A stretch of DNA of 64,000 bases from Siphonodentalium dalli (Eukaryota > Mollusca > Scaphopoda > Gadilida > Siphonodentaliidae), in assembly GCA_032622095.1 (NCBI GenBank), contig CP136063.1:148171379-148235378 (forward strand), written 5' to 3'. Shown here in pieces: positions 25,601-64,000 of this stretch. The translations under genes were made by a program, and so were the position numbers. The notes under the pieces are model-generated. The model saw only the letters and a program-made list of their open reading frames with translations, did not search any database and was not told the DNA's origin. How positions within the stretch are numbered: the stretch's first letter is position 1; the number at the start of each line of letters is the position of its first letter.

Positions 25601-28600
25601 CTTAAGTCAAAAGTTTCAAACAAATGAATTAAACCTTGCCCCACTCTACTCCAGAAACGGGCATCTTATGCCATGCACCAACGGCGTGCTCATGTTATTT
25701 AACCCTTTACCCATCACGTCGGCATTTCTCTGCATCCAGGTCTGCCGTCATAACGGCATTTATCGGCGTCCAGGTTTGCCGTCAGAACGGCATTTATCGG
25801 CAGTAAAAAACGTATATTGTTACCCTCTGTTTGGCATCATATTTCAGCGTTTTTAGCAAATCAAAGACCAACATTATTAGTATCTATGGAAAGCTGAGAT
25901 CATAGTATAGCTATCTTTCAAATTATTTGGTATATTTGATTGATATTATAAAGATTTTCACCATGTAAACCTTTTCAAGATAGCTTGTATTTCCAACAAC
26001 AAAATCTTTGCGTTTTCGGCCGTTGTCATAGACGCTTCACCTTGTTGATTGTGTTCTGTAAGGTCGCGAGGAAAACTACGTTGAATCCGACAACTTGAAA
26101 TTGAGATTTATATTGGATTATGTATTATTTCTTAGATAGTGATTTTTTATTTCCAAATAGTGCAACATAAACATAGTTTTTCCCAGCCCTAAATCGGTCA
26201 CAGATAAGCGAAACTCTCAGCGTAACGTTTGCGTAACTGGGATATTTTCCCTGTTCATTTGTAACAAGTCACATGACGATAACAAATATTAATATTTTAA
26301 TTTGTTTATATTAACTAAAAATATAAGTAAGTTCAATCATTTATGTCGAATATTTAATATATATTGTTTAAAATGTATTGAATAGCAATGCGAGGAACTA
26401 TAATTAGAAGCTTCAGATGAAACAGTGCGTTTGCCAATTTCTGAACACGTGCTTCCATCGAAGCTGGGCGCGAATTTCAATCTTATAATTATCAATAATT
26501 TTTCAAGAGATATTTATCATTTAAACGAATAAAATTGCACTATCAGTATGTCCTTTGTTACAAGTTGAACATATACCAAACAATATTTCGATTACCGGTA
26601 GTTTAACTGTGTACACACATTGTGTTATGACACTAACTGTGATCGGAGATTGCATCATCATTTATAATACATCAAGGTCAAGGTAACGCCTGTGTCTCGA
26701 TGTGATTTATTTTTTAGTATATTTCGTCATCTTTATTCAACAAGTTGTCTTGCTATTCTTATTAAGTTTGGCATCTCAAATATTCACGAAGAGAAAGTAC
26801 TATTATCGACATTATTGGTCATTCAATCTTTTTTCAAATGACAATGTGAGATGTGCCAAGATATATCGTAATTAACTGGGTCACGTTCGAAGTACGTACA
26901 CATTACGTTCGTGAGGTATACAGAAGGAGTTGTTGTGAGCGCTGAAAATATTGTTCTTGTGTGATTGCTAAAGTTCATTTTCACTGCGCGTTAACTTAGG
27001 GATATCCACTGGTATATTCGCCAAATTGTGATGTGAAAAATCACAGAAATGGCTACGTAAAACTTGGTTTATGTTTTATTTGAAATGCTTGTCAATGCGT
27101 GGAGCCGTGAAAACGTGACGCGCCATTTTCAAAAATAATGGTTGAACGCATTTCGTTATCTTCATTTTAAGAACTATCTCAGCTGACTTCTTGCCAATTT
27201 TACATTGAGTATTATTGATAAAAATGTTTGGAAATGTTATTTCGATAATATTTTATTTTAATACATTGAGTGAACAATTTTGACAATTCAATAAAGTTTT
27301 GATCGGAAATTTCGACAAAGATTTTTGATTTTCTCTTCACGCATTGTAGAAGAATAAGTTACACGTCCCAACGTCATGCCAATTCAGCCCAATGTTGTGG
27401 GCACGGGGATTGCATAGATTAATACCCAAATAAATTATGTTGTTAAAGCGCATTGACAAATACATAATCTTGAGTATATTCTCCACAATATAATCGAAAA
27501 ATACAAAGGAATGGACACATGATTCAATCCAAATGTTTCATTTAAAAAACACTCCCGCCAAGAAACGCCCACTGATAACGTGTGCACAAAATATGTACCG
27601 GTACCTGTGAACACGTGTTGTTGTCATGTGGGGCACACAATGGGGACTGTCATTTATCATTGTTATAACTATTACCCATTCGGTAATAAATAAATGACAT
27701 TCATTGCAAATTCAAACAGAATATATCTTAGATTTAGTGTTAGTATCAATTGACCATTTCTCGAGTGTTGTCATTGAACTTATTGATCAGCTGAAAATCT
27801 TGATCTGGAAATCTTGCCGACGTCAGAGCAGCAAGGCCATAATTAAAAAGGTTTTGTTTGTCCTCGCCCCGACCGACTCGATTTTAACGGCCGACTGGAA
27901 ATTCTTTTATTGAGATTCAGAATTTTTAATTTTTTTTAATTTATAGTGGTATGTTGTCTGAGAAGCTGAACATTCCACATTTCTAAGTTCCAATGCCAAT
28001 ATCTTGATTATAAGCTATATTTTTCAAAACGGGTACACAATTCTCAGTTAAACAGTTCAAAAACTGATATTTACCGATTATGAAGATTTTGTCTCTGAGC
28101 ACCTGCAAGCGGCAGCCACTAGAAAACACAGAATTTATTAATTGATAAAACACCATATTTTGTCAAATACCTCTGCATGCATTTACAGATAATGTCAAAA
28201 TAGTTTACTCTTTGGCGGATTTCATGAGCTCCAGTGACTGATCAGTGGCAAATAATAATTAGGCTTTCCAATTGGAAAAAAAAGTTATTCATGATTTTTT
28301 AAGAGTCTAGTTTGGTTACAGGAAAACACATCTGTTGCCTAGCCAGTTAGAATCATACTTTTGGTTAAACCTTGAAAAGGAAAGCACTCACAATCTACTA
28401 GTACCCTTGCATCCTGTCCTACAGTCAGGATTTTTTTCCCCGCAGAATCGACTTCACCACTTCTTCACCACCTTCTCCACCCCCCCCCCTCCTTTGCCCG
28501 GCATAGATCCCCCCTAACTTTCTTTGCAAAAAATGACTGTATATCAATCTGTCATTGATGTGTGGAAGCATAATTAAATAATTTTGAATGAATGTTACCA

Positions 28601-31600
28601 AAGCAAGGTAGAGTTACTTCTCTTACCACATATAACCAGTTATAAACTGCCTGAGATCAACACATGCAGTTTTATAATATCTCCGTCAAGTATCTTGCCC
28701 ACTGAACTATATGGTATATTATCCCAAGTAGGAGGGGTTAACTCTCCGAGTTGAAAAAACGGTACGAAATTCTATGGTACATATCCTCTGTCATGTTCAT
28801 GGTATGCGGCTTATACGGACCCTGGCTCTTACGGACCCTGGCTCTTACGGACCCTGGCTTTTATGGACCACCGGCTGATACGGACCTTGGCTTATACGGA
28901 CCCCGGCTCATACGGACCTCAATTAAAATATGCAATTTTCAAACTTATATTTATGAATTTAATATATAATTATGATTGTCTTTTTACACATATATCTGTA
29001 TTAATTGAGAATTTCGGTGATTTTTTTGGTGATTTTCAAACTCATATTTATGAATTTAACCGATTTTTTCTTTTTTTTTCAAACTTATATTTATGAATTT
29101 AATATATAATTATGATTGTCTTTTTACACATATATCTGTATTAATTGAGAATTTCGGTGATTTTTTTGGTGATTTTCAAACTTATATTTATGAATTTAAC
29201 CGATTTTTTCGGTTTTTTTTTCAAACTTATCTTTTTGAATTTAATATATAATTATGATTGTCATTTCACACATATATCTGTATTAATTGAGATTTGTTTT
29301 GATTTTTTTGGTGATTTTCAAACTTATATTTATGAATTTAACCGATTTTTTCGTTTTTTTTCTTCAAAATTATATTTATGAATTTAATATATAATTATGA
29401 TTGTATTTTCACACATATATCTGTATTAATTGAGAATTTCGGTGATGTTCTGGCTTGAAAAAGCATTTATTGAATCGCGTTAATTAATCTCTTCATCATT
29501 GTATAAACACGCGCGTGTGATCCCTTTATGTCGTTGTATAAACAGACATGCGGTGATAAATGGTCAGTGAATGGTGATCAGGGTGAATCCACTGAGTTTG
29601 ATTTGTTACGAAAACATGTTAGTAAAAACGCAACTTGTTTCAACTGATTTATTGTCCCTTGTATACACACTCGTGTGTGATCCCTTATATTGTTTTATAA
29701 ACAGACACGCGATGATGAATGGTCAGTGAATGGTGATCAGCATGAATCCACTGAGTTTGATTTGTTATAAAAACATGTTAGTAAAACACAACTGGTATAT
29801 ATTCAACTGATTTATTTTTGACTGGCATAATTCCACAATGACTGCATTGAACCTGAATGTTCTACTTGAGAGCACAACAGCTACTACTCGTCGATGAGGT
29901 TAACTGCCAGCAAACTACTGAAAGAAGCCATCAAGCTGTACGCCCCAATTTAGATAATGTTCGTCTGATGTAACGTTGTTCCATTTTTGTTATCATCAGA
30001 TTTTTTGTTATCTCAGTATGTATGTTGTCAGTATTTTGATTTTATTTAAATAAACATAAAAAATAAAATTGTATATTTTAATTGAGGTCTGTATGAGCCA
30101 GGGTCCGTATAAGCCGAGGGTCCATATAAGCCAGGGTCTGTATCAGCCGGTGGTCCGTAAAAGCCAGGGTCCGTAAGAGCCAGGGTCCGTAAGAGCCAAT
30201 GTCCGTATCAGCCGGCATTCATGTTCATGACCCGTGTAATCACGTGATTTCTGACACGTAGTGAAGTATTCGCCATATTTTTATCCCTCCTAAGCTGGAC
30301 GGACGCAAAAAGAATCTCTCCTATGAAGCTAAGTTGCAGTTTGTATAGCAAAAACAGTTTTGTTTTTGTTTTATACAAACAACATTATTTCTTTGCTTAT
30401 AGTTGAAAATTATGTACAATTCACATAAAGATTACGCTGTTTGTTCCGAATATAATATCGGAATCGGATGACTCGTTTCGTTTTAACGGACTTTGTCTTC
30501 CATAATTTTAATCGGTCAATGATTTAATACTAACACTTGACACACGCCGTCCATCGCTACAAGTTGTCATCTCCGGGTCAGCGCGGCTGAGGGATACACC
30601 CTGATCATGCTCTCCGGTACCTTGTGATAATAGTGTGTGGGAATTTGGGCTAAAATTACTAGTAGAATGGCCATTTTACTTTGTCTCAATTCAAATTAGG
30701 AGACATTTTCTCTAAAAAATTATTACGTTTATGCTATTATTTGGCACCTGAAAGTTTATCCTCCATGCCTTCTGCCCCAGCTGGGCTTGGAATGGGATCA
30801 CAGTTCACAGGCTTGTTTCCTCCTTATTATAAGCCACCACTTCCGGGGGCTTGGCAGACAGGTTACTGGCCGCATTCTGGCCAACAGCTGCCAGTAACTT
30901 CGGGTTTGATTTTAAATGAAAACCAAAGATCTTATTCCCTGACGCCATTATAGCAGGAAGCTTGCTTGGGAACTGGTACCTACTAACCTCCCATCGCCAC
31001 TTCGGTCGGTTGGATATAGGGATCGGTCGAGCTGCTGCTCCATCCCCGAGATGTACAGGCTCTGGACATTCCTCCGGGGGTCCCCAATGACCAGACCTCA
31101 CACGCAATTAGAAATGAAGCTTGTCGTGGTGTATTGTGCTGTTAACACCCCATCGCCGGCTTCGACCGATGGAGATCGGGATCAGATCGAGCAGTCGCTC
31201 CAGCACGAGGTGAAAGAGCTTTCGACATTCCTTTCGGATCACCTTTACATGCGCTTACGAGGGAGCTCAGTTAGTTGTTCAGTGTTCTCTGATGCAGCCA
31301 AGCGCAGGAAGAAAATTAATGTAAAATTTTGATTAGCAAATAACCTCAGATTGACATGATTTGATAGCATTGTTCTACAATCATTTACAATTTAACAGAA
31401 CATCAGAGTGCTTTCCCTTGTTTCGAGGGTTCCAAGGAAGAGATAGAAACCTTTACGACCAGGACACTGTCACTTGTCGATGTATAGTGTTCCCTTCATT
31501 GGCGTAATTAGCGCTCAGGATGATAGTCCCACCAAACAGGTCGCGGGTTGGGGCTACCCATTGAACCCATTGGCCGCATTTGGTGGGCTTTCTGGACTAT

Positions 31601-34600
31601 CGACAGGGACTCCAAGTCGGATACTCGGGACGACGGTTGGCATACCCTGGGACAGTCAAATGAGGAAATAGGATCCAAGTTGCAGCCTTCATAATTGGCT
31701 ACGGCAATCAGTATTGCCGAAGCAATTTGCTGAAGCAAACTGGGCCACGGCATACTGTTGCCATAGCAGATTGCCGAAGCCAAACAATCTGAATTAAGAG
31801 GGCTGATTAGTTGCATGGCTTTTGTTCGCATTTGGGTAGCAACTTGCCCTGTGATGCCGGTCAATTTGTACCCTGCCCTAACGTCGTCAGAGCTGGGTGG
31901 TTATGCCATCGGACTGCACACTTGGCGACCTGGGTTCGACCATCCTGAGAGGTATTCAACCATTTTACTGTTCTCAGTTTGGGATGTGTTCAACTTCTTG
32001 CTTTATAAGTTGTTGCTTCTTTCCATGTTCCATCCAGCTCTTTCGTGGTCACGGGCTTTGCTGGAGAATGTCTATAGTCATTCATATCACTAGATTAGTA
32101 TATGACTCTCGCCCTTTCATTTTCCTGACTTTTAAGACGTGTTCTGGACTGATTCGGGTGCTCGAAAGGGTAAATATTTACATCTCGGTGCAAGAATCAG
32201 AGATAAACAAGCATACATGCTTTATCTCCGACCTCGCTGTGTTTCCGTAATAGATACGAATGACATTGGGTGCGTTGGAACTGTGGATTAACTGAGTCGG
32301 ATTAATTCTTCGTTTCTGTTTGCTCATCCGTTTCATCTCACTTTAATAAGGACACCACCTACAGGTATGGTTGCCCAATAACCAGATATAGGGTTTATCC
32401 TCTCAATATGGTTGTATATTTTAGGTGGGTGCATTTGCATATATTTTGTCTTCAGGTTGCTTTCAGTTCTAACTCAACATGGATTTCACTTTTGTTGTCC
32501 AGTCATACATAGATGAGTCCATTATCCATGGTTCGACATATGCTCAATTTCAGAACGCTGTTGACATGAGGTCTAGTTCAGCACCCCGCTCGGGCTTAAT
32601 GCGCAACACGGCGTATTAGTGTGGAAAAGAAGAACGAAATGGCTTCTGTGATATCGGCCTTGGGTCTAAAACGTCATTCTTCTTATGGGCTCGGTTGTCG
32701 GTACATAATGGTTTTGTTTTCCCTGATAGTGCTTGATTCGCCTAGTGCTCATTTAATATACTAAGCCAGGTCCTTTGCTGACCTTAGCGATTGCCAATGC
32801 AGGATAATGTTGCACCTATGGGGCAGCATATGAATCGTGTTGGGCACACTTCATAAAGCCGGATGAAGATTCTTGCCAGATGCTTCTCCTGCGTGCGAGA
32901 TTCACTAGCATTGGGTGTCGGATGCCAGATCATATGATCCGCCCTCTCGATTCGCACTTCGGGCGATGGTTGTCTCCAGAATAGGGTCCCATTGGAGGGG
33001 CACCCCATCCGTCCCAGAAGGGATACCTTGCGCCATCGACTCGTCGGGGACCAGTCAGCAGAGCTCGAACAGTTGGGGCGCGGTGGCCCTTGGTCTGCTT
33101 TTCATTACCTACCTGCCGTCAGTTTCCGCTGGTTTTGGGCTTGTGCCACAATCCTGATGCATCGTTGGTACAATTTTTGTTTTTGTGGATTTCCACCTTA
33201 ATGACATTGGAATTTCGGTTCCTGGCTGCCTTTCTGTCATGGATTCAGTAGCCTGTGGTTGGTCAGTTGGTGGTGGGCATTTCAACATTTGGGAACGTCA
33301 TCAGGGGAAAATGCCATGGCTTATTGCATCTTAGTCGGTGATATCTCGAACTCCAGGCTTCAAACTAAGTTTTCTGCTGTGAAAACTCCAATTCTGAGCC
33401 CTGGGGGGGTGTTACCCGTACCTTTCCCGGCAAGTACTCGGCTGATACATTATTAGCCCTAAGTTCCGATGCGAATGTCGTCTCAGTCTCCATGTTTTCT
33501 GAAGCTATTTACTTTACTTGCAGGTGTCTTAAACTCTTAAGTGGCCACTTTTTGTTCGTTTGATCTTGCTGACAGGTATTAGTTTTAGGATGTAATATTA
33601 CATTGGCTTATGGTCCTATTGTGCATGTGTATATATATATATGTATATACATATATATCTATATGTCTGTGCATGTATATGTGTATATTGTAGGTTATCA
33701 GGTCAATCCAGTTCTTTGATTCAGATGCATAGCGGTGTTTTTGTTTCCTCGTGGCCTCCACCTGTTAGAAAATTCTATTCTTTACCATATAGTTCAGTGG
33801 GCAAGATACCTTTGACGGAGATACAATATTTTCCAAAATAATAAAATATATATCTCCTAGAAGTATCTTGCCCACTGAACGCTGAGCTCCCTCCCAGGGT
33901 TTCGCACCCACCCCGCTCACGAGGAATGTCCTACTGTGGATAAAAAATATGGCGAATACTTCACTACGTGTCAGAAATCACGTGATTACACGGGTCATGA
34001 ACATGACAGAGGATATGTACCATAGTATTTCGTACCGTTTTTTCAACTCGGAGAGTTAACCCCTCCTACTTGGGATAATATACCATATAGTTCAGTGGGC
34101 AAGATACTTCTAGCAGATATATATTTTACTTATTTTGGAAAATATTGTATCCTGTGCAGTCTGTTGAGAAAAACATCAGCTCATAACAGGTGAATATTTT
34201 TCTGCTTCCAAGATGATAATTATAGCTTCAAGTTGCATATATTGTTTTCTGCTTCATTTTTAGAGATTAGATAATATGAACCGGCCTACCCTGTCATGTC
34301 CGTGAAGGCATGAAATCTTGTATTGAAACCCGGTGACCTCAAAACATGTGGTGATTCTGGGTGATTTGGTATTTTTAGTAGTTGGGCAATTTCTCTGGAT
34401 CCAACTACGCACTTCTTACCTATATCTGAATCAAAGCTACCCCCCAAGACTCATCTTTTCAAAATTGCATTCATGCCTGACCATAAAAGAATCCTGATGA
34501 TGTACACTGCACGATTTGATGAAACCATGATGTCTTGATTTAGTATGCCCCCGAGCCCCGTAGAAAGTTCAGGGACTATAGCCGAGGGCTCCTTCTGTCT

Positions 34601-40600: not shown

Positions 40601-43600
40601 ACAGCAGCCAATGATTATTATCTAATGAAAATTTGGCTGACCATTTTATTATCTAATGAAAATTAGGCTGACCATTTTATTATCTAATGAAAATTAGACT
40701 GACCATTTTATTATCTAATGAAAATTAGACTGACCATTTTATTATCTAATGAAAATTAGGCTGACCATTTTATTATCTAATGAAAATTTGGCTGACCATT
40801 TTATTATCTAATGAAAATTAGGCTGACCATTTTATTATCTAATGAAAATTAGGCTGACCATTTTATTCCAACAATATTTCATTATGACTGATGACTTGTA
40901 CTTGTCTCTCAAAAGAGCATACAACTTAGAGTGTCATAGAGTAAGTGTCTCCTCAAGACCTAGCTATAAGTGCGTACATGTATGTTTTTTCATTAGGAAA
41001 ATTCCCCTTTTGAAGATTGTATCCCTTGGCCCTTAGGCTTTGTGTTTCCAGACATCAGAAGAACATCAGAAGGTACTAAATGGTTTCTCCCATTCAGTTT
41101 TACGAGTGTACATTGGAACAGTCTATTATTCATTTGGTTGGGTGTTGAGGTAATAAAAGCAGAAAAACAGATAAAACAAGCGCAGAAAGATTCATATTCA
41201 TTGGTGGGAAATGTTCATATAATAAGTTCAACAAATGACCTACATATAAATATATGGTTGTTTGTTGAACTTATTATCTGAACATTTCCTTAGGGAACTA
41301 CTCATTAATGAGTATTTAATATTATAGAACTGGTTAATTATAAACTGGAATCCTCATCTCCAGATTTTTACTTCCAGACTTAACAACATTTTTGAGAAGA
41401 AAAAGCAAGATGATCCGACCCAGCTTATTTCGACCTTTGAACTGACTGACCTTGTTGGACTGCTGTCATTGTTGTATGGAATGTTGCTGCACAGTGCACC
41501 AGTCAGCCGTGGTGACACTCCCCCTCCTGAAATGTCTCCGCCCACAGTGCAGGTCATCACACTGGGACTGAGAATGATCAACAATACAGCTCTGCTCGAT
41601 CTCCCTATGATGCAGGTAAGATTTATGGCCCCAGGATTCAGTACTATTAATACGTACACCTGTAATTTACAAGGTGAAAGAACATCAGAAGGTACTAAAA
41701 TTGCTACTAAAATTATAACTGACATCATTTTGATATATAGCCTATATGCAGAAATGACAATAAACCCTAACTGGCCATGCCAATCTGTAATTTATAGAAA
41801 AACATCTGTGCTGGTGACCTTCTGTTGCTATTATAACTCATAAATACCAACTTGGTTAAGTGTGTAAAAGTACTTACTGCCTTACATCTAGATTTTCATT
41901 CATTTTGTATCATGTATCTGGTATCTGTGGGTCAAGAACTAGTCTCCTCCATCACGGTCATAGATCAGAAAGAGAAGAAGATTTTCAGATTACTCAGGTT
42001 TAGTTCATTCCTGGTGGTGAGATTTATGGCTATGGATGGATTGAGGAAAGTTAGGTATCAGTCCATACGAATATGGTAAATCTCTGGTAACAGTTGTCCA
42101 ATTTTACTAGAGTTGAATTTATTGAATTACCCTTATTTCACATAAAATAGTGTCAGGTGTTTCTAGCCATGTCGGTTATACTCGGGCTGTGATTTGGTGA
42201 CATCATTACATCATTAAACCTTTTTACTTGCAGTCCTAATATATTGTCATTTGGGGGTCCGTGATGGTATGGTCGGTTTTAGTAAACACACCTCTCTAAT
42301 TAAATCTAATAGAACAAAAAATAAGAAAGCTTCCTCTTCATTTGGATCTATATACACTAGGGCTTCATAGTTTTTCAGTATTTAGTCATACCGGGGTTTA
42401 ATTTTTAATACCGTGTAGTCGGTATTGGACTACTTCAATAGTCGGTACATCGCGGCACACAATATTTTCTTTAAGTCGGTTTTACAACAGCAAACTTACA
42501 AAAATGCAATAACGCGTGCTTGTAAGTCATGAGCAAGAACCAGCGAGACGAAACAAGAACCAGCGACACGTGAAGATAACCAGCATAACTGCAGAAAAAA
42601 ATGCGAAAAGCAATTATAACAAAGGCCATGTCAATGCGTTGTATGCTGATGGATGTTGATAGTTGTCTCATATGCAGCTCAAATTAGTGTACACAAAGCA
42701 ATAATTAGACCATGATCACCATCCATACAATTACGAAATGCAAACTGTACAACGTTGTCCCAATTCGCACAGACATATCTCTGAGTGTATATATGCTGTG
42801 TTGTGAAATAATAATTTGTGAATTAAATGCTTGATATTTTTTGCGTAAGCAACATCATTAGGACACCACAAATTGTTAAGATCACAAGTGACATGCATTG
42901 CATTGTCCTATTTCTGTGTTTCCATGTGATACTGCATTCACACACGAATATTGAGTTGCGCACTGCATATTCCATAGGATCTTGACTAGCAAAATGCTTG
43001 GGCATTATTCTTGACGGTATTTAGTCAAACCGCAGTATTTTATTTAATATCAAAGTCAGTATTGTGACCCAATATACACATGCTTACCAGATAAACAGCT
43101 TTATAGAATATGCGTAATCTTTATCCTGAGCGACCAAAGGTTGGGCCATGACTAGGGTTGACTTTCTTTGTGTTATTATGGATTTGTTTTCTTTTTGTTT
43201 TTTTTTCAGTTTGTTTTAAACCATATTTTCTTTCCAGAAAACACTTGGAGATGAGGGAAATTCTTTGGAAATCCGACATATTTGCAGTTACCTTATATGG
43301 TATTGCTCACATCACCCATCAGAGGAACTACTGCATGAAGTGATCATGTGTGTTGGTTATCTGACGATATGTAATGCGGACAATCAGGTATGGGATATTA
43401 TTAGTACCCCAATGTCTGTTCACGTAGTACAGGGTTTTACTACCCGAAGCCATCGAGAAAACCATAACTAAAACAAAAATATGTATAAACATGCCCATAA
43501 ATGACTGATAAATTTTGAGTTGGACAAAAGTGATAATGGAATTGTGAACGGATGGGAACCGCAGAAACTGAAATAGGTCTAACCGGCAATGTACAGTAAT

Positions 43601-52600: not shown

Positions 52601-55600
52601 TCTGAACTGTTTTCTTAACATTTATGGTTTCCGATCGATAACTCCAGTTTGGATTATTTTATCTGAACCAAAGCTGGTATTTGTGTTTCCGAGCTAAAAC
52701 TACAGTTTCAAGTTTGAATATAGGTTCTGTCGAATTATTTTCACATGAGTTACGGCTATTTTTCGACTCAGAATTTGACTGCATTTTGGCATTGAAGTTA
52801 GGGGTATATCAGATATTCTTTGTAAGCTCAAATTATCGTTTTATTTTGCGGTAGTACAATTTGAAATGGCTAAAGGGTGTATTTTGCCATGCCCTAGCAA
52901 TGGTCTTGTTATTCTTTGAATTTTTAAATTTAATGTATAGGCATCTTGTAATTGATCATTGGCATGACACTGAGGCAGTCAAAAAAGTACTTGGTTTTGT
53001 CACTAGCTTTCACACACTGGTGCTTTTGCAAATCATTTCCCATAACTCTTTTGCACAAAGGTATTACACTTGTCATAACACCACATCAATACATTCAGTC
53101 ACAGAAATAGGCAATAAACTCCGAAATTTATTGAGCGATAAAGTAAGCACATCAATAGATATTTTCATTTTATTAATTGGTCCAGTGCATTAAAGTGCAC
53201 TGAAATAGATAATCTTACAAGTCATCTCTGCTCACCGATTCCCATAAACTGTAAAAAATATTTGATTGTTTTAGCTGATCATATCAGAAAGAAATTTCAT
53301 GGGAAAAGATAGAATTTTTGCTGTGAACATGGAGGTTCATATAGTGCTTTTATTCATCCCAACTGTATAGCCCTGGGGTTGAATGCAGCTGAATTCCTGT
53401 TTTGTGTGGCTATAAAAATTTGATGGTTTTAAACCAATTGCTCCAAACTTGTCAAGAAAGAAAGTTTCAGTTCAGTACATTGGATTTTGAGAGGGTACAT
53501 TTTGTGATGTAATTTGAGGCTTGGTTCTCTTCTTTATTTCGCTTTTAAATCAAGTTATTTGCTTTATTATACAGTAATGCCCTAATTAATCGACTCCTTA
53601 ACCACAGCAGAATTATGGGTAATTTTTCAGGATTTAGTCAAACATATGGCTTGTCATTCATCGGAAAGCCCTCACTGAGAGCTTTCCGATGAATGGGAAC
53701 AAGATGGAAAACCACTATTCCCTAGACATCATCTATTAGGTTTGAATTGGTATTCAATATGAATTATCTCAAAATTATAGTTCAAATTTACAGGATATAG
53801 CCAACATTGTAGGTATAATTTTTTTTTATCTTAGCTATTCCAAATTATGTATAAATTACACATATATTGTATATACAAGCCAAGTGTTAGATGAAGTGAT
53901 TGATCTGATTTTTTAGCTCAACTTTACTTTGTAAAGTTTGAGCTATTGCCATGGCTTGGTATCCGTCGTGCATGTGAGGGTGTGTCTGTGTGTGTGCGTG
54001 ATTCGTCAACAATTTCCTTTAGCACGGGCTACAGTTCGTACCTTTGGTCCGATTATTATGAAATTTGTCATGGATGTTGACATTGACATGTAGATGGGAA
54101 CGAGTCATTTTGGGGTCATTCGGCCGAAAAACATGGCCGCCAGCGGCCATTTTGGATTTCAAAATTCAATCCATTAGCACGGGCTACAGGCCGTACTGTT
54201 TGTCTTATTGTCATGAAATTTGTCATGGATGTTAATATTGACATGTAGATGGGAACGAGTAATTTTGGGGTCATTCGGTCAAAAAACATGGCCGCCGGCA
54301 GCCATCTTAGATTTTACTCTTTGTATGACTAAATTCTTTAGCACGGGCTACAGGTCGTACTGTTAGTCTGATCATCATAAAATTTGTCAAGAATGTTAAT
54401 AATGTCATGTAGATGGGAATGAGTCATTTTGGGGTCATTCGGCCAAAAAACATGGCCACCAGCAGCCATCTTGGATTTTACTCTTTGTATGAAATGACTA
54501 AATCCTTTAGCACGGGCTACAGGTCGTACCTTTAGTCTGATCATCATAAAATTTGTCATGGCTGTTGAAATTGGAATGTAGATGGGAACAAGTAATTTTG
54601 GGGTCATTCGGCCAAAAAACATGGTCGCCAGCAGCCATCTTGGATTTTACTCTTTGTATGACTAATTCCTTTAGCACGGGCTACAGGTCCTACTTTTAGT
54701 CTGATCATCATAAAATTTGTCAAGAATGTTAATAATGTCATGTAGATGGGAATGAGTCATTTTGGGGTCATTCGGCCAAAAAACATGGCCGCCAGCAGCC
54801 ATCTTGGATTTTACTCTTTGTATGACTAAATCCTTTAGCACGGGCTACAGGTCGTACCTTTAGTCTGATCATTATAAAATTTGTCATGGCTGTTGAAATT
54901 GGAATGTAGATGGGAACGAGTCATTTTGGGGTCATTCGGACAAAAAACATGGCCGCCAGTGGCCATCTTGGATTTCAAAATTTAATCCATTAGCACGGGC
55001 CACAGGTCGTACTGTTCGTCTGATCATCATGAAATTTGTCATGGATGATAATATTGACATGTATATGGGAACGAGTAATTTTGGGGTCATTCGACCAAAA
55101 AACATGGCCACTAGCAGCCATCTTGGATTTTACTCTTTGTATGACTAAATTCTTTAGCACGGGCTGCAGGTCGTACCTTTAGTCTGATCATCATAAAATT
55201 TGTCATGGATGTTAACAATGACATGTAGATGGGAACGAGTAATTTTGGGGTCATTCGGCCAAAAAACATGGTCGCCAGCAGCCATCTTGGATTTTACTCT
55301 TTGTATGACTAAATTCTTTAGCATGGGCCACAGGTTGTACTGTTCGTCTGATCATCATGAAATTTGTCATGGATGTTAATATTGACATGTAGATGGGAAC
55401 GAGTAATTTTGGGGTCATTTGGCCAAAAAACATGGCCGCCAGCAGCCATCTTGGATTTTACTCTTTGTATGACTAAATTCTTTAGCATGGGCTACAGGTC
55501 ATACCTTTAGTCTGATCGTCATAAAATTTGTCATGGATGTTAACGATGACATGTAGATGGGAACGACTCATTTTGGGGTCATTCGGCCGAAAACATGGCC

Positions 55601-55865
55601 ACCAGCAGCCATCTTGGATTTTACTTTTCTCTTCATGTCTATAAACTAGTATTAGAAATTCAACTTTCCACATTCCTAATCGCTCCATTGACTGTAATAC
55701 ATTAAATTATTCCCTTTCCAAGTTGAGCTACAGTATCATTGACACTTTCATTTTCTTTTAGAAAAAGAAAAACAGAAGGATGCAGACAACAGGTTCGCTT
55801 TCTTCTCCAGATTTCCACAGGAACAGTCAACAGCTGCTCAGGAGTATTTCACATCCAAAAAATAA
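4508..55865 (+). CDS. SCAPER: SCAPER gene, 3' portion (gene-level entry, spliced)
   Basis: This entry covers the 3' end of SCAPER, a large ER-associated protein that binds cyclin A and, in mammals, links TTC5 at ribosomes to CCR4-NOT during tubulin mRNA autoregulation. Exons are 4508-4631 (proposed), 8199-8440, 16117-16263, 41378-41615, 43238-43387, 47434-47625, 50144-50213 and 55762-55865. All introns are GT-AG and all phases match; the last seven exons total 1143 nt, or 380 residues plus stop. Recognition rests on peptides that follow the vertebrate C-terminus as I know it: YVISVGIVDKV, FLQHSIGF, LLHEVIMCVGY, NADNQ, LPFQYFSDPRL, ACCYNNE and a lysine-rich tail. The N-terminal half and promoter lie upstream of the window. 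Family identity is confident; function is known from the family, not shown here. Confidence 0.93.
4718..6940. mobile_element. 2.2 kb DNA transposon, TA flanks, ACCGCGGT-rich ends
   Basis: The left terminus (CAGCTATGCTC, a short gap, TAAGCGACCTGTTTAACG) and the reverse complement of the right terminus (CAGCACTGCTC, a gap, TAAGCGACATGTTTTAACG) form an imperfect TIR of about 40 bp. Both sides are flanked by TA (4716-4717 and 6941-6942). Directly inside each TIR is a dense array of ACCGCGG / CCGCGGT words (4770-4860 and 6720-6900), resembling subterminal transposase-binding sites. The 1.7 kb interior has only short ORFs (for example 5518 down to 5168, 116 codons) without recognisable motifs, so the copy is non-autonomous or decayed. 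A TA target suggests a Tc1/mariner/pogo-like mechanism, but no catalytic domain proves it. Confidence 0.65.
6955..7440 (+). repeat. Hairpin/TCCG-type repeat with three ~163 bp units
   Basis: A short CATCCACCC...CCGTCCGTCTG head is followed by three diverged tandem units. Each contains a form of 'TTTGGTATGA', 'CATCATGGTTGCTTTCAAA' and 'GGCAAATGATGTTG', at about 7037, 7199 and 7362. The layout is the same as in the larger repeat families of the window. Confidence 0.6.
7479..8048. mobile_element. piggyBac-type MITE, 570 bp, perfect 13 bp TIR and TTAA target
   Basis: AGGGGTACTGTAC at the left end is the exact reverse complement of GTACAGTACCCCT at the right end. Each end is flanked by TTAA (7475-7478 and 8049-8052), the target duplication diagnostic of piggyBac-like elements. 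There is no ORF in the interior, so it is a non-autonomous MITE. It lies in the intron just upstream of the exon at 8199. Confidence 0.8.
8199..8440 (+). CDS. SCAPER: SCAPER exon, 80 codons
   Basis: The acceptor is CTTGTTTTTCAG just before 8199 and the donor is CAG|GTAACT after 8440. The reading frame begins at a codon boundary with TLNRDELKKS, runs through LHVIPDAKLPYDLLIVNLMQ and AKNNPVINSSEASLERMS, and ends NDII plus the first two bases of a serine codon. Completing that codon in the next exon gives DIISYVISVGIVDKV, which matches the SYI-x-x-GLVDKL stretch of vertebrate SCAPER. The middle (SSEASLERMSLSGDAFNSRG) is polar and probably a loop. An ATG at 8151 in the same frame lies in the intron and is not a start. 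Confidence 0.88.
8645..8808. repeat. Two short hairpin MITE-like palindromes
   Basis: The first (8645-8712) pairs GCCAATGCATTCTCTTATA with TATAAGAGAATACATTGGC. The second (8746-8808) pairs TCTCTTATATATGCGAG with CTCGCATATACAAGAGA and ends AATGCACCGG. A third member lies at 40026-40072 (GGCCAATGCAATCTCTT... AAGAGAATACATTGGC). They are one small hairpin family sharing the CCAATGCATTCTCTTAT arm. Confidence 0.65.
8925..9830. repeat. CACTCCTGTTACC motif cluster, left
   Basis: The 16 bp word TGTCACTCCTGTTACC or close variants occurs near 9299, 9320, 9512, 9667 and 9682, and inverted at 9704. The segment at 8929-8962 (GTGAATATTTGAAAA-GTGTACAATTTG) recurs inverted at 14805-14840. With the matching cluster at 14254-14645 this suggests two ends of one inverted-repeat element separated by later insertions. 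Confidence 0.45.
9831..10420. other. Intron, nothing recognised
   Basis: AT-rich sequence with no exon-like ORF, TIR or tandem structure that I could support. Confidence 0.4.
10421..11310 (+). repeat. TAGCTCACCTGAG hairpin-headed repeat with TCCG tract
   Basis: It begins with an imperfect hairpin (AGCTCACC-TGAGAC...GTCTCC-GGTGGAGCT, 10421-10451), followed by a TCCG/TCTG microsatellite at 10470-10545. Three diverged units of about 145 bp follow, each with 'CAGATTTGTTCAAATG', 'GGTCACTGGGTCAAATAG' and 'CCAGGGCCATAACTC'. A further unit at 11140-11300 ('ATATGGGTTTGATCCGAT', 'GAGTTATGGCCCTTT') belongs to a sister family. The repeated DGRTDRRTDGQT peptide on the minus strand is a translation of the microsatellite. 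Confidence 0.75.
11519..12912. repeat. Cluster of five palindromic GAATGAGGTCCCC MITEs
   Basis: Imperfect palindromes of about 100 bp with arms GCAGAATGAGGTCCCCAGAG / ...GGGACCTCATTCTGC lie at 11535-11635, 11990-12087, 12290-12388, 12516-12612 and 12808-12905. Between some copies the spacer 'AAAATGCATAATTGAGGTGC' to the 'CTTCAATCT' stretch is repeated (12187-12247 and 12706-12770), so part of the cluster arose by segmental duplication of roughly 520 bp. Two more copies occur at 59853-60012. Confidence 0.7.
12945..14155 (+). repeat. Composite TCCG-type repeat, copy 2
   Basis: This copy matches the repeat at 901-2805 at both ends (12951-13490 and 14039-14152). A second hairpin/TCCG head remnant (CTCCGGCGGAGCTATAGTC, then CCGTC-rich sequence) lies at 13495-13560, so a related element of the 10421 family is inserted or fused inside. 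Units with 'GCGAAGCCAGGGCCATAACT' follow at 13680 and 13830. Confidence 0.7.
14160..14850. repeat. CACTCCTGTTACC motif cluster, right
   Basis: Forward copies of the motif lie at 14254, 14272 and 14290, and an inverted copy (AGTAACAGGAGTGACAT) at 14628. The segment at 14805-14840 is the inverted partner of 8929-8962. The 4.4 kb between the two clusters is filled by the MITE cluster and TCCG repeats. Confidence 0.45.
14851..16116. other. Intron with weak local repeats
   Basis: A segment with 'ATGCTTCCT', 'CATAGTCATATTGAA' or 'CATAGTCATGTTGAA' and 'GATACAATG' occurs three times (about 15328, 15423 and 15880). They look like diverged copies of one short repeat. No gene is recognised. The exon acceptor lies at the right end. 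Confidence 0.4.
16117..16263 (+). CDS. SCAPER: SCAPER exon, VDKV / FLQHSIGF segment
   Basis: The acceptor is TTTTTTCCCCAG before 16117 and the donor is AAG|GTATGT after 16263. The first base completes the serine split from the previous exon. The peptide YVISVGIVDKVRQYFSNVRG, then PIEHDKDAADFLQHSIGF, then ITSMTKFMSKR follows vertebrate SCAPER closely (GLVDKL, then a GPV segment, then FLQHA-GLL). The 147 nt exon ends two bases into an arginine codon. A long antisense ORF (16846 down to 16067) overlaps it and is a shadow of this exon and of the transposase remnant next door. Confidence 0.92.
16454..17140 (+). pseudogene. Decayed pogo/Tigger-type DDE transposase
   Basis: The + strand carries frame-broken fragments in the order of a pogo/Tigger transposase. 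First comes a DN-x-MPTKPG segment near 16640, where N-A-DETG is usual, then a GG-Y-N-KE segment and LLMAFGCTNISG from 16706 (the KSK-R-TLLL-CN-TG region). A P-KSMTW segment follows near 16795, then DKKSDLKMNTLDALM near 16940-16983, then FIETTIANCCRHC at 17010-17050, where TI-NCFRHAGF is typical. Stops and frameshifts interrupt it throughout. A possible TIR (CAGTAACCC...AACTCGACG) starts at 16454. The 259-codon ORF on the opposite strand is its antisense shadow. The N-terminal DNA-binding domain is not visible. Confidence 0.55.
17141..18004. other. Intron, nothing recognised
   Basis: AT-rich intronic sequence, possibly including the decayed 3' part of the transposase up to about 17460. No repeat structure or ORF supports a feature. 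Confidence 0.35.
18005..18494 (+). repeat. Family A hairpin-headed repeat, two units
   Basis: It starts TTTTTTATACACCCTTTTGA with a short inverted repeat and a TCCG-like tract (18055-18085). Two ~170 bp units follow with 'AACATTTTTGGTTTTCGATC', 'GATAACTCCAGTTTTGATTA' and 'CAGACCAAGTTCGAATATGG' type words. It ends with the family terminus GCCACGCCC-TAGCGATGCTCTTGTT. Other members are at 51290-52913 and 56870-57315. Confidence 0.75.
18881..19195 (-). CDS. Unassigned 104-codon ORF, possibly coding-derived
   Basis: The peptide is polar and well mixed (for example DLPIVQCASRREKFEGEIML, then SAINQAGTKQAKMSCHVNG), unlike the low-complexity shadows around it, but I do not recognise the family. It has no visible splice sites or upstream promoter and lies in a repeat-rich intron on the opposite strand to SCAPER, so a transposon fragment is the likeliest source. 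A chance ORF is not excluded. Confidence 0.2.
   Translation of the reverse strand: MAGNQTSIDLPIVQCASRREKFEGEIMLKCCDLSMTGAYHDAQILHLAIGIHRQSTKKAVSAINQAGTKQAKMSCHVNGIKLYSEQPKVPWPAQKLQLHQVNPW
19440..21035 (+). pseudogene. Decayed gag-like coding fragments, internally duplicated
   Basis: Two diverged copies of one coding segment lie at 19628-19830 and 20808-21030. Both start near Q-ARSRLLV / QAQSRFVV and share PLF, then AxKG-D, then a run ending near the ATG-GTACCCC/TCTGCTGACAAGTC stretch. The second is open for 83 codons (20782-21033) and is rich in A, P, S and G. Between them, 20041-20160 is open in one frame and contains YNLNPEAPEFVPRTRR, a good PAM2-like motif. Pro/Ala/Ser-rich, broken ORFs fit an ORF1/gag of a retroelement. 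No RT, integrase or recombinase motif is seen. Confidence 0.4.
21058..21225 (-). repeat. SINE-like element with tRNA-type B box
   Basis: Read on the minus strand, GGTTCGGATCC near 21128-21138 fits an RNA polymerase III B box. The + strand words 'AGCCAGCCAATGAACCGG' with 'GCAGCCATTGCA' and a later 'CCTTGCTCA' recur at 49455-49620, and 'GCAACCTTGCTCAAGG' at 35049. These three loci look like diverged members of one tRNA-derived SINE family. Confidence 0.45.
21302..23334 (+). repeat. Near-identical 650 bp direct repeats, 1382 bp apart
   Basis: Positions 21302-21955 and 22684-23334 are almost identical; a three-base ATT indel and one or two substitutions are all I see. Each copy begins with a perfect 28 bp palindrome (ATACTTCCATATT, TT, AATATGGAAGTAT). 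The same 82-codon reading frame appears in both. The 728 bp between them contains a diverged copy of the 3' part (TATCTATA-GG/AAGATGTAC, AATTTTGT-AATCGGTTGA). The simplest reading is a tandem copy of a longer element: one full 1.38 kb unit followed by a truncated one. Confidence 0.8.
23647..24715 (+). repeat. Diverged tandem repeat, about 360 bp, three units
   Basis: Units start near 23647, 24006 and 24364. Each has a form of 'GGGTTAATGAAGGAGC', 'AATGCAGGAGCAGGTAC', 'AAAGTTTGAC', a CTAACGGA-like word, 'CAAATTCCAACAAAAA', an AT-rich block with 'GAGATAAAA' and a 'CGTGGCGA' or 'CACGTGG' word. Divergence between units is high. At 23400-23465 a shorter motif, GGTGGTGAGACCAGGC, is tandemly repeated. 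Confidence 0.6.
25130..25560 (+). other. Strongly G/T-skewed, C-poor tract with GGGTTA words
   Basis: The + strand is markedly poor in C and contains repeated GGGTTA, GGTTATGG and AATGTTATGG words (about 25132, 25177, 25280, 25361 and 25448). It looks like degenerate simple or telomere-like sequence. The in-frame ORF at 25166-25366 follows from the composition rather than from a gene. Confidence 0.4.
25699..27910. mobile_element. Relative of the 2916-4339 element, inverted
   Basis: It starts TTAACCCTTTACCC at 25699, like the other element's terminus, with two GC-rich GGCATTTATCGGC repeats (25757-25802). The part from about 27280 to 27900 is the inverted counterpart of 3090-3660, including 'CAAAGGAATGGACACATGAT' and 'GGTAATAAATAAATGACATT'. 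I find no matching right-hand AAAGGGTTAA, so the right end is probably truncated. Most of 25860-27260 is AT-rich without other recognisable structure. Confidence 0.45.
28801..30219. mobile_element. Foldback (MULE-like) element, 1419 bp, 9 bp target duplication
   Basis: Long inverted termini (28803-28928 and 30083-30217, roughly 130 bp) are built from an 18 bp tandem word such as GGCTCTTACGGACCCT / AGGGTCCGTAAGAGCC. CATGTTCAT occurs directly outside both ends (28792-28800 and 30220-30228). The uninterrupted site is present in the inverted terminal repeat at 33997-34005, which proves both the boundaries and the duplication. A 9 bp duplication with long TIRs is typical of Mutator-like elements. 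The interior holds AT-rich tandem repeats and no transposase. Confidence 0.85.
28936..29450 (+). repeat. AT-rich 140-143 bp tandem repeat inside the foldback element
   Basis: The word GAATTTAATATATAATTATG recurs at 28955, 29095, 29237 and 29380, spaced 140-143 bp, with 'CATATATCTGTATTAATTGA' in each unit. A second tandem pair of about 165 bp follows (29497-29825), sharing 'GGTCAGTGAATGGTGATCAG' and 'CCACTGAGTTTGATTTGTTA'. Confidence 0.8.
30660..33450 (+). pseudogene. Decayed internal region of the DIRS-like element
   Basis: Several short + strand frames have coding-like composition: 30681-30953 (Pro/Gly/Tyr-rich, PSAPAGLGMGSQFTGLFPP), 31051-31332 (with DQIEQSLQHEVKELSTFLSD) and 31474-31671 (GWGYPLNPLAAFGGLSGLST). 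Further ones are 31815-32093, a 46-codon frame from an ATG at 32479 (MDFTFVVQSYIDESIIHGST) and 32915-33201. Two segments about 155 bp apart (30991 and 31149) are duplicates of each other. They fit a gag-like ORF1 and unidentified downstream domains, all broken. I name no domain because no catalytic motif is visible. Confidence 0.35.
33628..33690. repeat. TA/TG-rich microsatellite
   Basis: An alternating TGTATATATATATATG-type stretch with imperfections, inside the DIRS-like element. Confidence 0.8.
34546..34705 (+). repeat. Truncated hairpin-headed repeat
   Basis: It begins TATGCCCCCGAGCCCCGTAG with a partly complementary GGGACTATAGCCGAGGGCT, then (TCTG)4 and CTAGCCGTCC. The body stops after about 100 bp. 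It shares the hairpin plus TCTG/TCCG head layout with the larger families but its own arm sequence. Confidence 0.6.
34870..35275 (-). repeat. tRNA-derived SINE candidate
   Basis: On the minus strand the element begins near 35275 with TGGTCCAGTGGTTAGCATG, a clear tRNA-type A box, followed by GTCAGACTTGCAATCGCTG. Where a B box is expected the sequence is degenerate and interrupted by a duplicated hairpin, TCGCTGTGTTGACAGCGA, present twice at 35183-35224. The body shares 'CCTTGAGCAAGGTTGC' with the candidates at 21058 and 49440. A head copied from a tRNA is inferred; no intact tRNA gene is present. Confidence 0.55.
35530..36330 (+). repeat. Hairpin-class repeat with four 171-184 bp units
   Basis: A CCATCTGTCTGTCCG head (35555-35575) is followed by four units starting at CTCCTCCCA words (35611, 35795, 35966, 36149). 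Each has a form of 'AGAGAATTGAAACTT', 'GATATTG', 'ATATTGCTAATGTGC' and 'GAGTTATTCCCCTTT'. A single related unit occurs inside another repeat at 58545-58710. Confidence 0.75.
36840..36906. repeat. 67 nt near-perfect hairpin
   Basis: AAGTATGGTTGCAAGTTGGTC pairs with GACCAACTTGCATCCATACTT with one mismatch. A CG/AT mismatch, six more base pairs and a small loop around TTATGCATG follow. It lies on the sense strand of a SCAPER intron. It could be a tiny MITE or a pre-miRNA-like hairpin; there is no evidence of expression. Confidence 0.6.
37068..37443. mobile_element. TTAA-type MITE carrying a nested palindromic MITE
   Basis: The ends TTAA|CCCTTTCTATACT and GCATAGAAAGGG|T-TTAA are inverted. The body includes 'GGGAAATGTTCAGATG' folding on 'TATCTGAACATTTCC'. 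A related copy at 41030-41336 shares 'CATTGGAAC', 'GTCTATTATTC' and 'TCTGAACATTTCCT', and lacks the inner insertion at 37120-37289. Confidence 0.6.
37120..37289. mobile_element. Palindromic CAGTAATGCCC MITE, copy 1
   Basis: It begins CAGTAATGCCCTAAATAATC and ends with the inverted form. The two halves are almost complementary through 'CAGAATTATGGGTAATTTTT'. A TA precedes it at 37118-37119. It interrupts the TTAA-type MITE around it. Confidence 0.75.
37444..39172. other. Intron, AT-rich, no feature recognised
   Basis: The ORFs at 37545 and 38177 have no recognisable motif, and no TIR, tandem unit or exon could be supported. Confidence 0.35.
39173..39356. mobile_element. Palindromic CAGTAATGCCC MITE, copy 2, with TA duplication
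   Basis: This 184 bp element is almost perfectly self-complementary, with TA at 39171-39172 and 39357-39358. The arms include CCTAAGTAATCGACTCCTTA and 'CAGAATTATG', and a short loop around ATATGGCTTGATCCCGATG. Confidence 0.85.
39359..40615. other. Intron, mostly unrecognised
   Basis: Apart from the small hairpin at 40026-40072 (same family as 8645-8712), this stretch has no supported feature. The minus-strand ORF at 39474-39758 lacks motifs. Confidence 0.35.
40616..40863 (+). repeat. 31 bp minisatellite, eight units
   Basis: The unit is a 31-mer of the form TATTATCTAATGAAAATTAG-GCTGACCATTT. CTGACC recurs exactly every 31 bases from 40637 to 40854. Variation is limited to TAGG/TAGA/TTGG at one spot. 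Confidence 0.95.
41030..41336. mobile_element. Relative of the TTAA-type MITE at 37068
   Basis: It shares 'CATTGGAAC-GTCTATTATTC', 'GGGAAATGTTCA' and 'TCTGAACATTTCCTTAGG' with 37290-37440. An internal hairpin pairs AATAAGTTCAACAAA (41220) with TTTGTTGAACTTATT (41261). It ends just 41 bases before the SCAPER exon at 41378. Confidence 0.55.
41378..41615 (+). CDS. SCAPER: SCAPER exon, 79 codons
   Basis: The acceptor is TTTTTACTTCCAG before 41378 and the donor is CAG|GTAAGA after 41615. One base completes the arginine codon split across the 25.1 kb intron. The peptide LNNIFEKKKQDDPTQLISTF, then ELTDLVGLLSLLYGMLL, aligns with the vertebrate stretch that has IFDNNRQDPTGL and DLAGVLHMLY. It continues through a proline-rich loop (GDTPPPEMSPP) to VQVITLGLRMINNTALLDLP and MMQ, matching the vertebrate helix before LPAFQ. 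The exon ends at a codon boundary. Confidence 0.93.
42370..43075. repeat. Segment bounded by GTATTTAGTCA direct repeats
   Basis: A ~50 bp segment (AGTATTTAGTCATACCGGGG, then a TTTAAT stretch and CGGTATTG) at 42378 is echoed in the same orientation at 43016-43065. The stretch between has no recognised gene. This could be an element with direct terminal repeats or two independent fragments. Confidence 0.3.
43238..43387 (+). CDS. SCAPER: SCAPER exon, LLHEVIMCVGY segment
   Basis: The acceptor is TATTTTCTTTCCAG before 43238 and the donor is CAG|GTATGG after 43387. Exactly 50 codons in phase 0 read KTLGDEGNSLEIRHICSYLI, WYCSHHPSEELLHEVIMCVG, then YLTICNADNQ. ELLHEVIMCVGY is almost the vertebrate SLLHEVIVCVGY, one of the most recognisable stretches of the family, and NADNQ is the point at which the vertebrate sequence continues VIVQSG, as the next exon does here. 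Confidence 0.95.
43594..43789. mobile_element. Palindromic CAGTAATGCCC MITE, copy 3
   Basis: This 196 bp self-complementary element begins CAGTAATGCCCTAAATAATC at 43594 and ends with the inverted form at 43789. The TA at 43592 is matched by CA on the right, so the right target copy appears mutated. Confidence 0.8.
43835..44822. mobile_element. hAT-type non-autonomous element, 988 bp
   Basis: TAGAGCTGAAACGG at the left end and CCGTTTCAGCTCTA at the right end are perfectly inverted. The 8 bp flanks AAAGCAGG and AAAGCAGT differ at one base, fitting the 8 bp duplication of hAT elements. Subterminal AACCGGTTAAC words repeat at both ends. No transposase is visible. Confidence 0.8.
45371..47060 (+). 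repeat. Hairpin-headed GTCCCCC repeat, split by a second one
   Basis: It starts with GTCCCCCG-A8-CAATTTGGGGGAC at 45375, followed by units with 'GTATATGGATTACTCACATG' and 'ACAGGTCA-GTTC' words, on both sides of the insertion at 45590-46457. The later units (46740-47060) contain 'ATTGAAATTTGATGTGGACA', 'GGCCCTC' and 'CTCGACTCGGCCCAACATC'. The ORF at 46464-46895 is a read-through of these units. Confidence 0.6.
45590..46457 (+). repeat. Family D hairpin-headed repeat, nested in the GTCCCCC repeat
   Basis: It starts TTTTTATCCCCCGCC with the complement TTCGGGGGATATAGG, then TCCGTCCGTCC. Four diverged ~160 bp units follow, with 'AGAACGAGTTCGCAAACCAG', 'GGCCGGATATTTT', 'TTATTGGACTTTG' and 'GACGTCACA'. 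It ends near GGGGGATACCGCCGTCTGC-GACTGCTTGTTA. The terminal CTTGTT is shared with families A and A'. Confidence 0.7.
47434..47625 (+). CDS. SCAPER: SCAPER exon, LPFQYFSDPRL segment
   Basis: The acceptor is TATTTCTCCAG before 47434 and the donor is GAG|GTATGT after 47625. Sixty-four codons in phase 0 read VIIQSGQAPTVLQQLCSLPF, QYFSDPRLTNILFPTLIACC, YNNELNVEILEQELSGSLLA and NFME. This is the best-conserved exon in the window: LQ-LC-LPFQYFSDPRL, LFP-LIA-CYNN and ILEQE all match vertebrate SCAPER. The segment is predicted to be helical, near the end of the protein's repeat-like helical domain. Confidence 0.97.
47626..48600. other. Intron, nothing recognised
   Basis: AT-rich sequence with no supported structure, between a SCAPER exon and a long inverted-repeat region. 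Confidence 0.35.
48610..49960. repeat. Nested inverted repeats with SINE-like insertion
   Basis: An outer inverted repeat pairs 48625-48900 (GCATTATTTATTATATTA, TTTTGTGTCTGATTTTGTC, CATGTATTTATTTCTATAAA) with 49775-49955. An inner hairpin of about 300 bp pairs GACAGTGTCTTCAGGTGTCA at 48970 with the TGCCTTCTGAAGACACTGCC stretch at 49219; both arms contain CGCGAAATGAGTC or its CACGAAATGAGTC form. A segment at 49440-49715 matches the SINE-like family. Arms are diverged, so this is an old foldback-type element. Confidence 0.6.
50144..50213 (+). CDS. SCAPER: SCAPER exon, short (23 codons plus 1 nt)
   Basis: The acceptor is TTTATGTTTCAG before 50144 and the donor is ACAG|GTAAAC after 50213. The peptide QKQLEIQQAKLTLTPSAKKS-INT is polar and not strongly conserved, as expected for the linker between the last helices and the C-terminal tail. 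It is accepted because its phases (0 in, 1 out) fit both neighbours and because it keeps the frame into the recognisable terminal exon. Confidence 0.85.
51025..51066. repeat. Isolated family B 3' terminus
   Basis: GTTGAGCTACTGTGTCATTG-ACACTTTCAT equals the right end of the family B elements at 55750 and 63757, but no head or units precede it. It is either a solo end or the remains of a deletion. Confidence 0.6.
51073..53112 (+). repeat. 190 bp direct repeats flanking a self-nested family A element
   Basis: Positions 51073-51262 and 52926-53112 match well (CAATTGATCATTGGCA, AAAAGTACTTGGTTTTGTCA, GGTGCTTTTGCAAATCATTT, CTTGTCATAA). Between them lies family A. The outer copy starts at 51290 (TTTTTATATGCCC), is interrupted at 51473 by an inner copy (51474-52369, TTTTTATACGCCC to GATGCTCTTGTT), then resumes to 52913. 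Units of 170-179 bp carry 'GATAACTCCAGTTTGGATTA', 'CAGGCCAAGTTCGAATATGG' and 'GAGTTACGGCCCTTTTTCGA'. Confidence 0.75.
53572..53702. mobile_element. Palindromic CAGTAATGCCC MITE, copy 4, 3'-truncated
   Basis: It begins CAGTAATGCCCTAATTAATC after TA at 53570-53571 and keeps the left arm and loop (GGAAAGCCCTCACTGAGAGC). The right arm stops after GATGAATGGGAACAAG. Confidence 0.75.
53914..55755 (+). repeat. Family B hairpin-headed array, ten 164/155 bp units
   Basis: The head TAGCTCAACTTTACTTTG-TAAAGTTTGAGCTA forms a hairpin and is followed by a GT/CG-rich tract. Units starting AGCACGGGCTACAGG lie at 54021, 54176, 54340, 54509, 54673, 54837, 54992, 55156, 55320 and 55484. Most are 164 bp; two are 155 bp and carry TTTCAAAATTCAATCCAT in place of the TTTACTCTTTGTATGAC segment. 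Every unit carries ATGGCCGCCAGCAGCCATCT or a close variant. The end is CAAGTTGAGCTACAGTATC-ATTGACACTTTCAT, immediately before the last SCAPER acceptor. Minus-strand ORFs here are repeat read-through. Confidence 0.9.
55762..55865 (+). CDS. SCAPER: SCAPER terminal exon with stop codon
   Basis: The acceptor is CATTTTCTTTTAG before 55762. Two bases complete a glutamate codon, and the frame reads EKEKQKDADNRFAFFSRFPQ, then EQSTAAQEYFTSKK and TAA at 55863-55865. Vertebrate SCAPER ends the same way: a run with ANRFP, then a stretch like W-EARQFF, then a lysine-rich end. The intron side of the acceptor is unusual because a hairpin-headed repeat array (53914-55755) ends about a dozen bases upstream of the exon, so the polypyrimidine tract borders or overlaps repeat sequence. 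Confidence 0.93.
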
Positions 55866-60012: not shown

Positions 60013-60028
60013 CTTGAGTATTGACAAA

Positions 60029-63757: not shown

Positions 63758-63859
63758 CTTTCATAAGTTTCTATGCTCTTGGCCAGCTGGTTTATTATAA
63801 GTCTCTATGCTCTTGGCCAGCTGGTTTATTATAAGTCTCTATGCTCTTGGCCAGCTGGT
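63758..63859 (+). repeat. 34 bp minisatellite, right part
   Basis: Three units continue the array interrupted at 60811. After 63859 the sequence is unique until a possible further hairpin head (GTGACCCCCAACTTGT) at 63943. Confidence 0.9.
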
Positions 63860-64000
63860 TTGGCTGGAAAATATTATCCAGTAGTGAGACAGATAATGTT
63901 CTATTTCCAAAATGAAGTCAGTGTTATAGTTCATATTATTATGTGACCCCCAACTTGTGCAAAACAAGTCACACTGTTATGATGAAACTGTTGACAGATT

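Follow-up and report, generated by a model that had tools for sequence, protein, structure and literature searches.

Introduction

Inverted ends made of short tandem words are known from the FB elements of Drosophila and the TU elements of sea urchins, which the element described here resembles in plan. Among the Mutator-like elements (MULEs) of Aedes, terminal inverted repeats (TIRs) of over 100 bp were reported in 12 of 14 families and short subterminal tandem repeats of 9–15 bp in 10 of these 12 (PMC5225508). Muta1, an active MULE of Aedes aegypti (3,198 bp, with a 504 aa transposase and an 8–9 bp target-site duplication) that was classed as a foldback element by its authors, has a TIR of 145 bp, composed of a 10 bp terminal motif and nine 12 bp words with 3–4 bp spacers (a period of 15–16); the 151 bp TIR of Muta5 consists of an 8 bp terminal motif and nine 15 bp words (PMC5225508). 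Both have many derivative non-autonomous copies, in which the number of words varies (PMC5225508).

A similar build was described for Tm1, a Mutator/Foldback element of the nematode Meloidogyne, with composite TIRs of 13–15 bp words (consensus CGATTCAGTATCCGC) (PMC3169594). Target-site duplications of 8–10 bp, mostly 9 bp, were reported for 45 of the 53 complete Tm1 elements, and the two TIRs of an element are on average 93% alike; a coding member encodes a MULE-type transposase, and there are also non-coding copies, e.g. of 1,080 bp (PMC3169594). Rehavkus elements are described as close to MULEs (PMC6446971), and MULEs were present in all mollusc genomes analysed in one survey (PMC10294476).

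Results and Discussion

Insertion into a copy of a host repeat

Within the window (i.e. the whole stretch of 64,000 nucleotides analysed in this study), a 172 bp host repeat is interrupted in one of its copies by a 1,419 bp insertion, which is accompanied by a target duplication of 9 (or 10) bp (Table 1), to the extent that this can be judged from a single filled and a single empty copy. When the flanks are joined without the insert, they match the reverse complement of a second copy of the repeat, the only differences being a single substitution and an additional T within a run of Ts. In this inverted copy the insert is absent and the target is present once. The preliminary description had already reported an insert-free host sequence in inverted orientation with a single 9-mer, and the alignment bears this out with the bounds given in Table 1.

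Table 1. Positions of the features of the insertion and its host repeat within the window.
Feature	Positions	Strand	Basis
Host repeat unit, left part, interrupted by the insertion; includes one target copy	28688–28801	+	joined-flank alignment
Left target-site duplication ATGTTCATG (shared 10-mer CATGTTCATG, 28792–28801)	28793–28801	+	BLAST within the window
Inserted foldback transposon of 1,419 bp, apparently without coding capacity	28802–30220	.	inverted ends; flanking direct repeat; absent from inverted host copy; longest frame 97 aa; no Pfam match
Left TIR: 6 bp terminal motif, seven 16–17 bp words (cores 28808–28918), short AT-rich inner segment	28802–28938	+	tandem-repeat search, alignment
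AT-rich 142 bp tandem array, 3.6 copies, left side of interior only	28936–29446	+	tandem-repeat search
Tandem pair of a ~160 bp unit, 86% identity between copies	29499–29816	+	BLAST within the window
Right TIR: 7 bp terminal motif, eight 16–17 bp words (cores 30086–30213), short AT-rich inner segment	30065–30220	-	tandem-repeat search, alignment
Host repeat unit, right part; includes the other target copy	30221–30286	+	joined-flank alignment
Right target-site duplication ATGTTCATG (shared 10-mer CATGTTCATG, 30220–30229)	30221–30229	+	BLAST within the window
Inverted host repeat copy without insertion (related empty site; target once)	33938–34109	-	172 bp, 98.8% identical to the joined flanks

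The direct repeat common to both flanks is the 10-mer CATGTTCATG, so that the duplication is 9 or 10 bp long, a length which, measured on one copy, falls inside the 8–11 bp range given for MULEs (PMC6446971). The 9-mer CATGTTCAT, previously placed against both ends of a 1,419 bp element, was found exactly where it had been claimed (28792–28800 and 30220–30228, with the element at 28801–30219), and the string shared by the flanks proved to be one base longer. The register ATGTTCATG, which is used here, gives a better pairing of the two ends (GTATGC... versus GAATGCC...); because the shared string has 10 bases, the register CATGTTCAT and a 10 bp duplication are also possible.

Inverted ends built of short words

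With bounds set by us, the left TIR measures 137 bp and the right one 156 bp; both exceed 100 bp, as MULE TIRs typically do (PMC5225508). Inverted termini of ~130 bp made of 18 bp tandem words had been proposed, and the inverted, word-built ends were indeed recovered, but the word is 16 bp long (occasionally 17) and consists mostly of GGCTNNTACGGACC plus two bases. There are seven words in the left end and eight in the right one, and outward of them lies a terminal motif, GTATGC (6 bp) on the left and GAATGCC (7 bp) on the right, the two being roughly inverted relative to each other. In the alignment of the TIRs, 10 of the 137 aligned positions are mismatched. A 17-base gap corresponds to a single word; two more gaps span just one base each, and one of these lies close to the inner edge.

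The words are colinear between the ends. The seven words paired by the alignment (extra word 6 of the right end excluded) differ at 5 of 98 core positions, whereas words differ on average by 12.4% when every left word is compared with every right one and by 13.8% when words of the same end are compared. Among 100,000 random word pairings, 117 were as good as the observed one, in a control that is biased toward the colinear reading, since the observed pairing was chosen by the alignment and the random ones were not. That the word types follow the same order at both ends favours a single inverted pair of arrays over two minisatellites grown independently. The anatomy thus supports the foldback element, 9 bp-class duplication and empty site that had been proposed: long inverted ends of tandem repeats surround a loop, and an insertion with a target-site duplication occurs together with a related site lacking it.

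The G+C content is 0.59 in the left TIR, 0.57 in the right TIR, 0.28 in the interior and 0.37 in the window. Across the 15 TIR words (28808–28918 and 30086–30213), TACGG is kept in 11, with TATGG in two and TACAG in two others. A transition has removed the central CpG from these 4 of 15 words, which would fit methylation-driven decay. This interpretation was not pressed, as neither the TIRs nor the whole element are CpG-depleted: the CpG observed/expected ratio is 0.68 for the window, 0.86 for the TIRs and 1.10 for the element.

Interior and coding capacity

Inward of the left TIR, and on this side only, lies the AT-rich 142 bp tandem array (93% matches), followed by the ~160 bp unit in two copies (29499–29653 and 29659–29816) and then by about 250 bp without strong repeats. 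AT-rich arrays of ~140 bp inside the element had been noted previously, and the 142 bp array agrees with this, while the ~160 bp duplication adds to it.

Stop-to-stop frames inside the element reach at most 97 aa. From the 219 stop-to-stop frames of at least 60 aa in the window, the 74 of at least 82 aa were scanned with Pfam and the 145 shorter ones were left out; a frame entering the element was trimmed to start inside it (28803). None of these 74 frames, the 97 aa one included, had a Pfam match at E 0.01, and neither a MULE DDE transposase nor a PHD-finger transposase was matched among them. Given the length of its longest frame and the lack of Pfam matches in the frames scanned, the element is very probably non-autonomous. 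The Rfam (gathering scores) and ARAGORN (bacterial code) searches likewise returned no hits.

Search for further copies

No second copy of the element was found in the window: a whole-element BLAST search (E 1e-3) returned only the element itself and its own repeats. When the left TIR, the interior and a single array unit were used as BLAST queries against the window at E 1, the only extra matches were short (12–44 bases, E 0.03 or more). Public viral contigs had no exact matches to either of two TIR patterns or to a 30-base pattern from the interior, one TIR pattern had none in prokaryote genome contigs, and the host-repeat patterns had none in either. Such zero hits are uninformative for a eukaryotic host and say little about it, because these collections hold viruses and prokaryotes and only exact matches were sought. 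Sequence words from the element and from the host repeat gave no match in a literature text search.

Affinity of the element

With good confidence, the element can be regarded as a foldback DNA transposon that is non-autonomous and most likely belongs to the MULE superfamily. This membership is suggested by the duplication length and the TIR plan of one copy, that is, by analogy and not by homology. The Mutator-like assignment of the preliminary description is therefore retained as likely on the anatomy of duplication and TIRs, at the level of inference, as no transposase was seen in the 74 frames scanned and only one copy of the element occurs in the window. A further suggestion, that TIRs which are themselves minisatellites are a novelty, does not hold, as this plan is known from the mosquito elements Muta1 and Muta5 (PMC5225508) and from the nematode element Tm1 (PMC3169594).

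Like Muta1 and Muta5, both with 8–9 bp duplications, the element combines a 9 bp-class duplication with TIRs composed of a short terminal motif and short tandem words (PMC5225508). It differs from both in having seven and eight words of 16 bp instead of nine, the likeness being one of plan. Muta1 has a palindromic terminal motif and encodes a 504 aa transposase (PMC5225508), whereas the element found here is apparently non-coding. With Tm1 it shares short-word TIRs, an unequal number of words at the two ends, a 9 bp-class duplication and the occurrence as a non-coding copy, but the end motifs of Tm1 are described as asymmetric, 7 bp long and placed outside the inverted repeat (PMC3169594), unlike the roughly inverted motifs reported above.

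More distant parallels can also be drawn. Tetris, a foldback element of Drosophila virilis with duplications of 8–10 bp, is likewise apparently non-autonomous and has internal tandem arrays, but its words are of ~220 bp and its TIRs of up to 1,735 bp (PMC4079207). Rehavkus has a 9 bp duplication, a TIR of 26–400 bp and a minisatellite before one TIR (compare the one-sided 142 bp array), but also a PHD-finger transposase (PMC6446971), for which no Pfam match was obtained in the 74 window frames scanned. Plant MULEs with tandem TIRs are non-autonomous and their ends carry a repeated recognition sequence, but there whole long TIRs are duplicated, in contrast to the 16 bp words observed in this study (PMC3310237).

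It is unlikely, but should be considered, that the foldback element belongs to another superfamily (P/Galileo-like, hAT or Merlin) and that its anatomy is convergent. The duplications of Merlin (8–9 bp) and hAT (8 bp) count in favour of such an origin, but the usual duplication of Galileo and hAT is 7–8 bp and the 9–10 bp found here falls outside it. Long, internally repetitive TIRs of foldback type are indeed combined with a P-type transposase in Galileo (PMC3688188); against this, a ~150 bp short-word TIR together with a 9 bp duplication is a close match to Muta1 and Muta5 (PMC5225508) and to Tm1 (PMC3169594).

If the element is a MULE derivative, both of its ends would be recognised by a MULE-type DDE transposase that would come from an autonomous relative at another place in the genome. 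The tandem 16 bp words may form a putative array of transposase binding sites beside the 6–7 bp terminal motif, and the transposase, guided by these arrays, would cut at the ends and the element would move by cut and paste. The idea that the words act as multiple binding sites is supported by analogy with the DNA-binding domain of Galileo, for which binding sites were located in two of the repeats of the Galileo TIR (PMC3688188); according to the same source, transposase binding to such repeats was at that time untested for Foldback and Phantom elements. It is rather unlikely that the element represents an undescribed MULE family with Muta-plan ends in a non-arthropod host, which would also spread the 142 bp and 160 bp units as satellite seeds elsewhere in the genome, as was proposed for Tetris.

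Overall, the observation is real, the element is of a known kind and there is no evidence of a new mechanism; current knowledge is unchanged by it. A clean foldback insertion and its related empty site within one window are useful for annotation, and the element is a further case of short tandem words in the ends as a part of the animal MULE-like plan. Word-built ends also bear on the way in which MULE-like transposases may recognise their ends.

History of the host repeat copies

Another history, in which the inverted host copy was once filled and the same element was precisely excised from it, is improbable. With a duplication of 8 or 9 bp present, ~90% of the yeast revertants of Muta1 had arisen by precise excision (PMC5225508, Table 2), and a clean empty site is therefore no proof that the copy was never occupied. 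However, this history costs an extra event, i.e. either duplication of the host unit with the element inside or independent filling of both copies; there is also no footprint at the empty site, although none would be expected after precise excision. A never-occupied inverted copy is the simpler reading.

To assess chance, random intervals of the same span were drawn from this window, and only 136 of 200,000 trials gave an exact 9-mer at both ends with a tolerance of ±3 bases. Although tandem arrays are present in the interior, the idea that a minisatellite grew in place as an inverted pair, with a coincidental flanking 9-mer and a loss of 1.4 kb from the inverted copy, is negligible in view of this frequency and of breakpoints that coincide with the target duplication as well as with the inverted ends. 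Chance is no serious explanation for the joint occurrence of duplication, empty site and inverted ends.

A palindromic module (GTTCAGTGGGCAAGATAC ... GTATCTTGCCCACTGAAC) at 33783–33880 is related to 28690–28716 and 34081–34107. One of its arms (33783–33809) has 27 bases in common with the beginning of the 172 bp host repeat, and the other (33861–33880) has 20. The module looks like a dispersed repeat or a MITE family. Positions 33820–33880 and 34090–34151 form a further inverted pair (97%).

We also considered that the two 172 bp host units might serve as TIRs of a larger composite transposon (28688–34109), which seems less likely. No target duplication was seen by eye outside the two units of this composite, and part of the unit recurs at 33783–33880, so that the host unit looks more like a dispersed repeat.

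Other repeats in the window

Several other repeats were identified in the window. A further dispersed repeat consists of 3148–3704 and 27245–27834, which are inverted relative to each other, lie ~24 kb apart and are 86% identical over ~595 aligned bases. A 34 bp unit (ATTATAAGTCTCTATGCTCTTGGCCAGCTGGTTT) forms two arrays, at 60028–60809 (23 copies) and 63763–63861 (2.9 copies). Arrays of another shared unit, of ~155–164 bp, are located at 60891–62038 and 63175–63666 (between the 34 bp arrays) and at 54015–55625. A 31 bp tandem array at 40615–40867 (8.2 copies) has probably grown recently, as suggested by its 97% matches.
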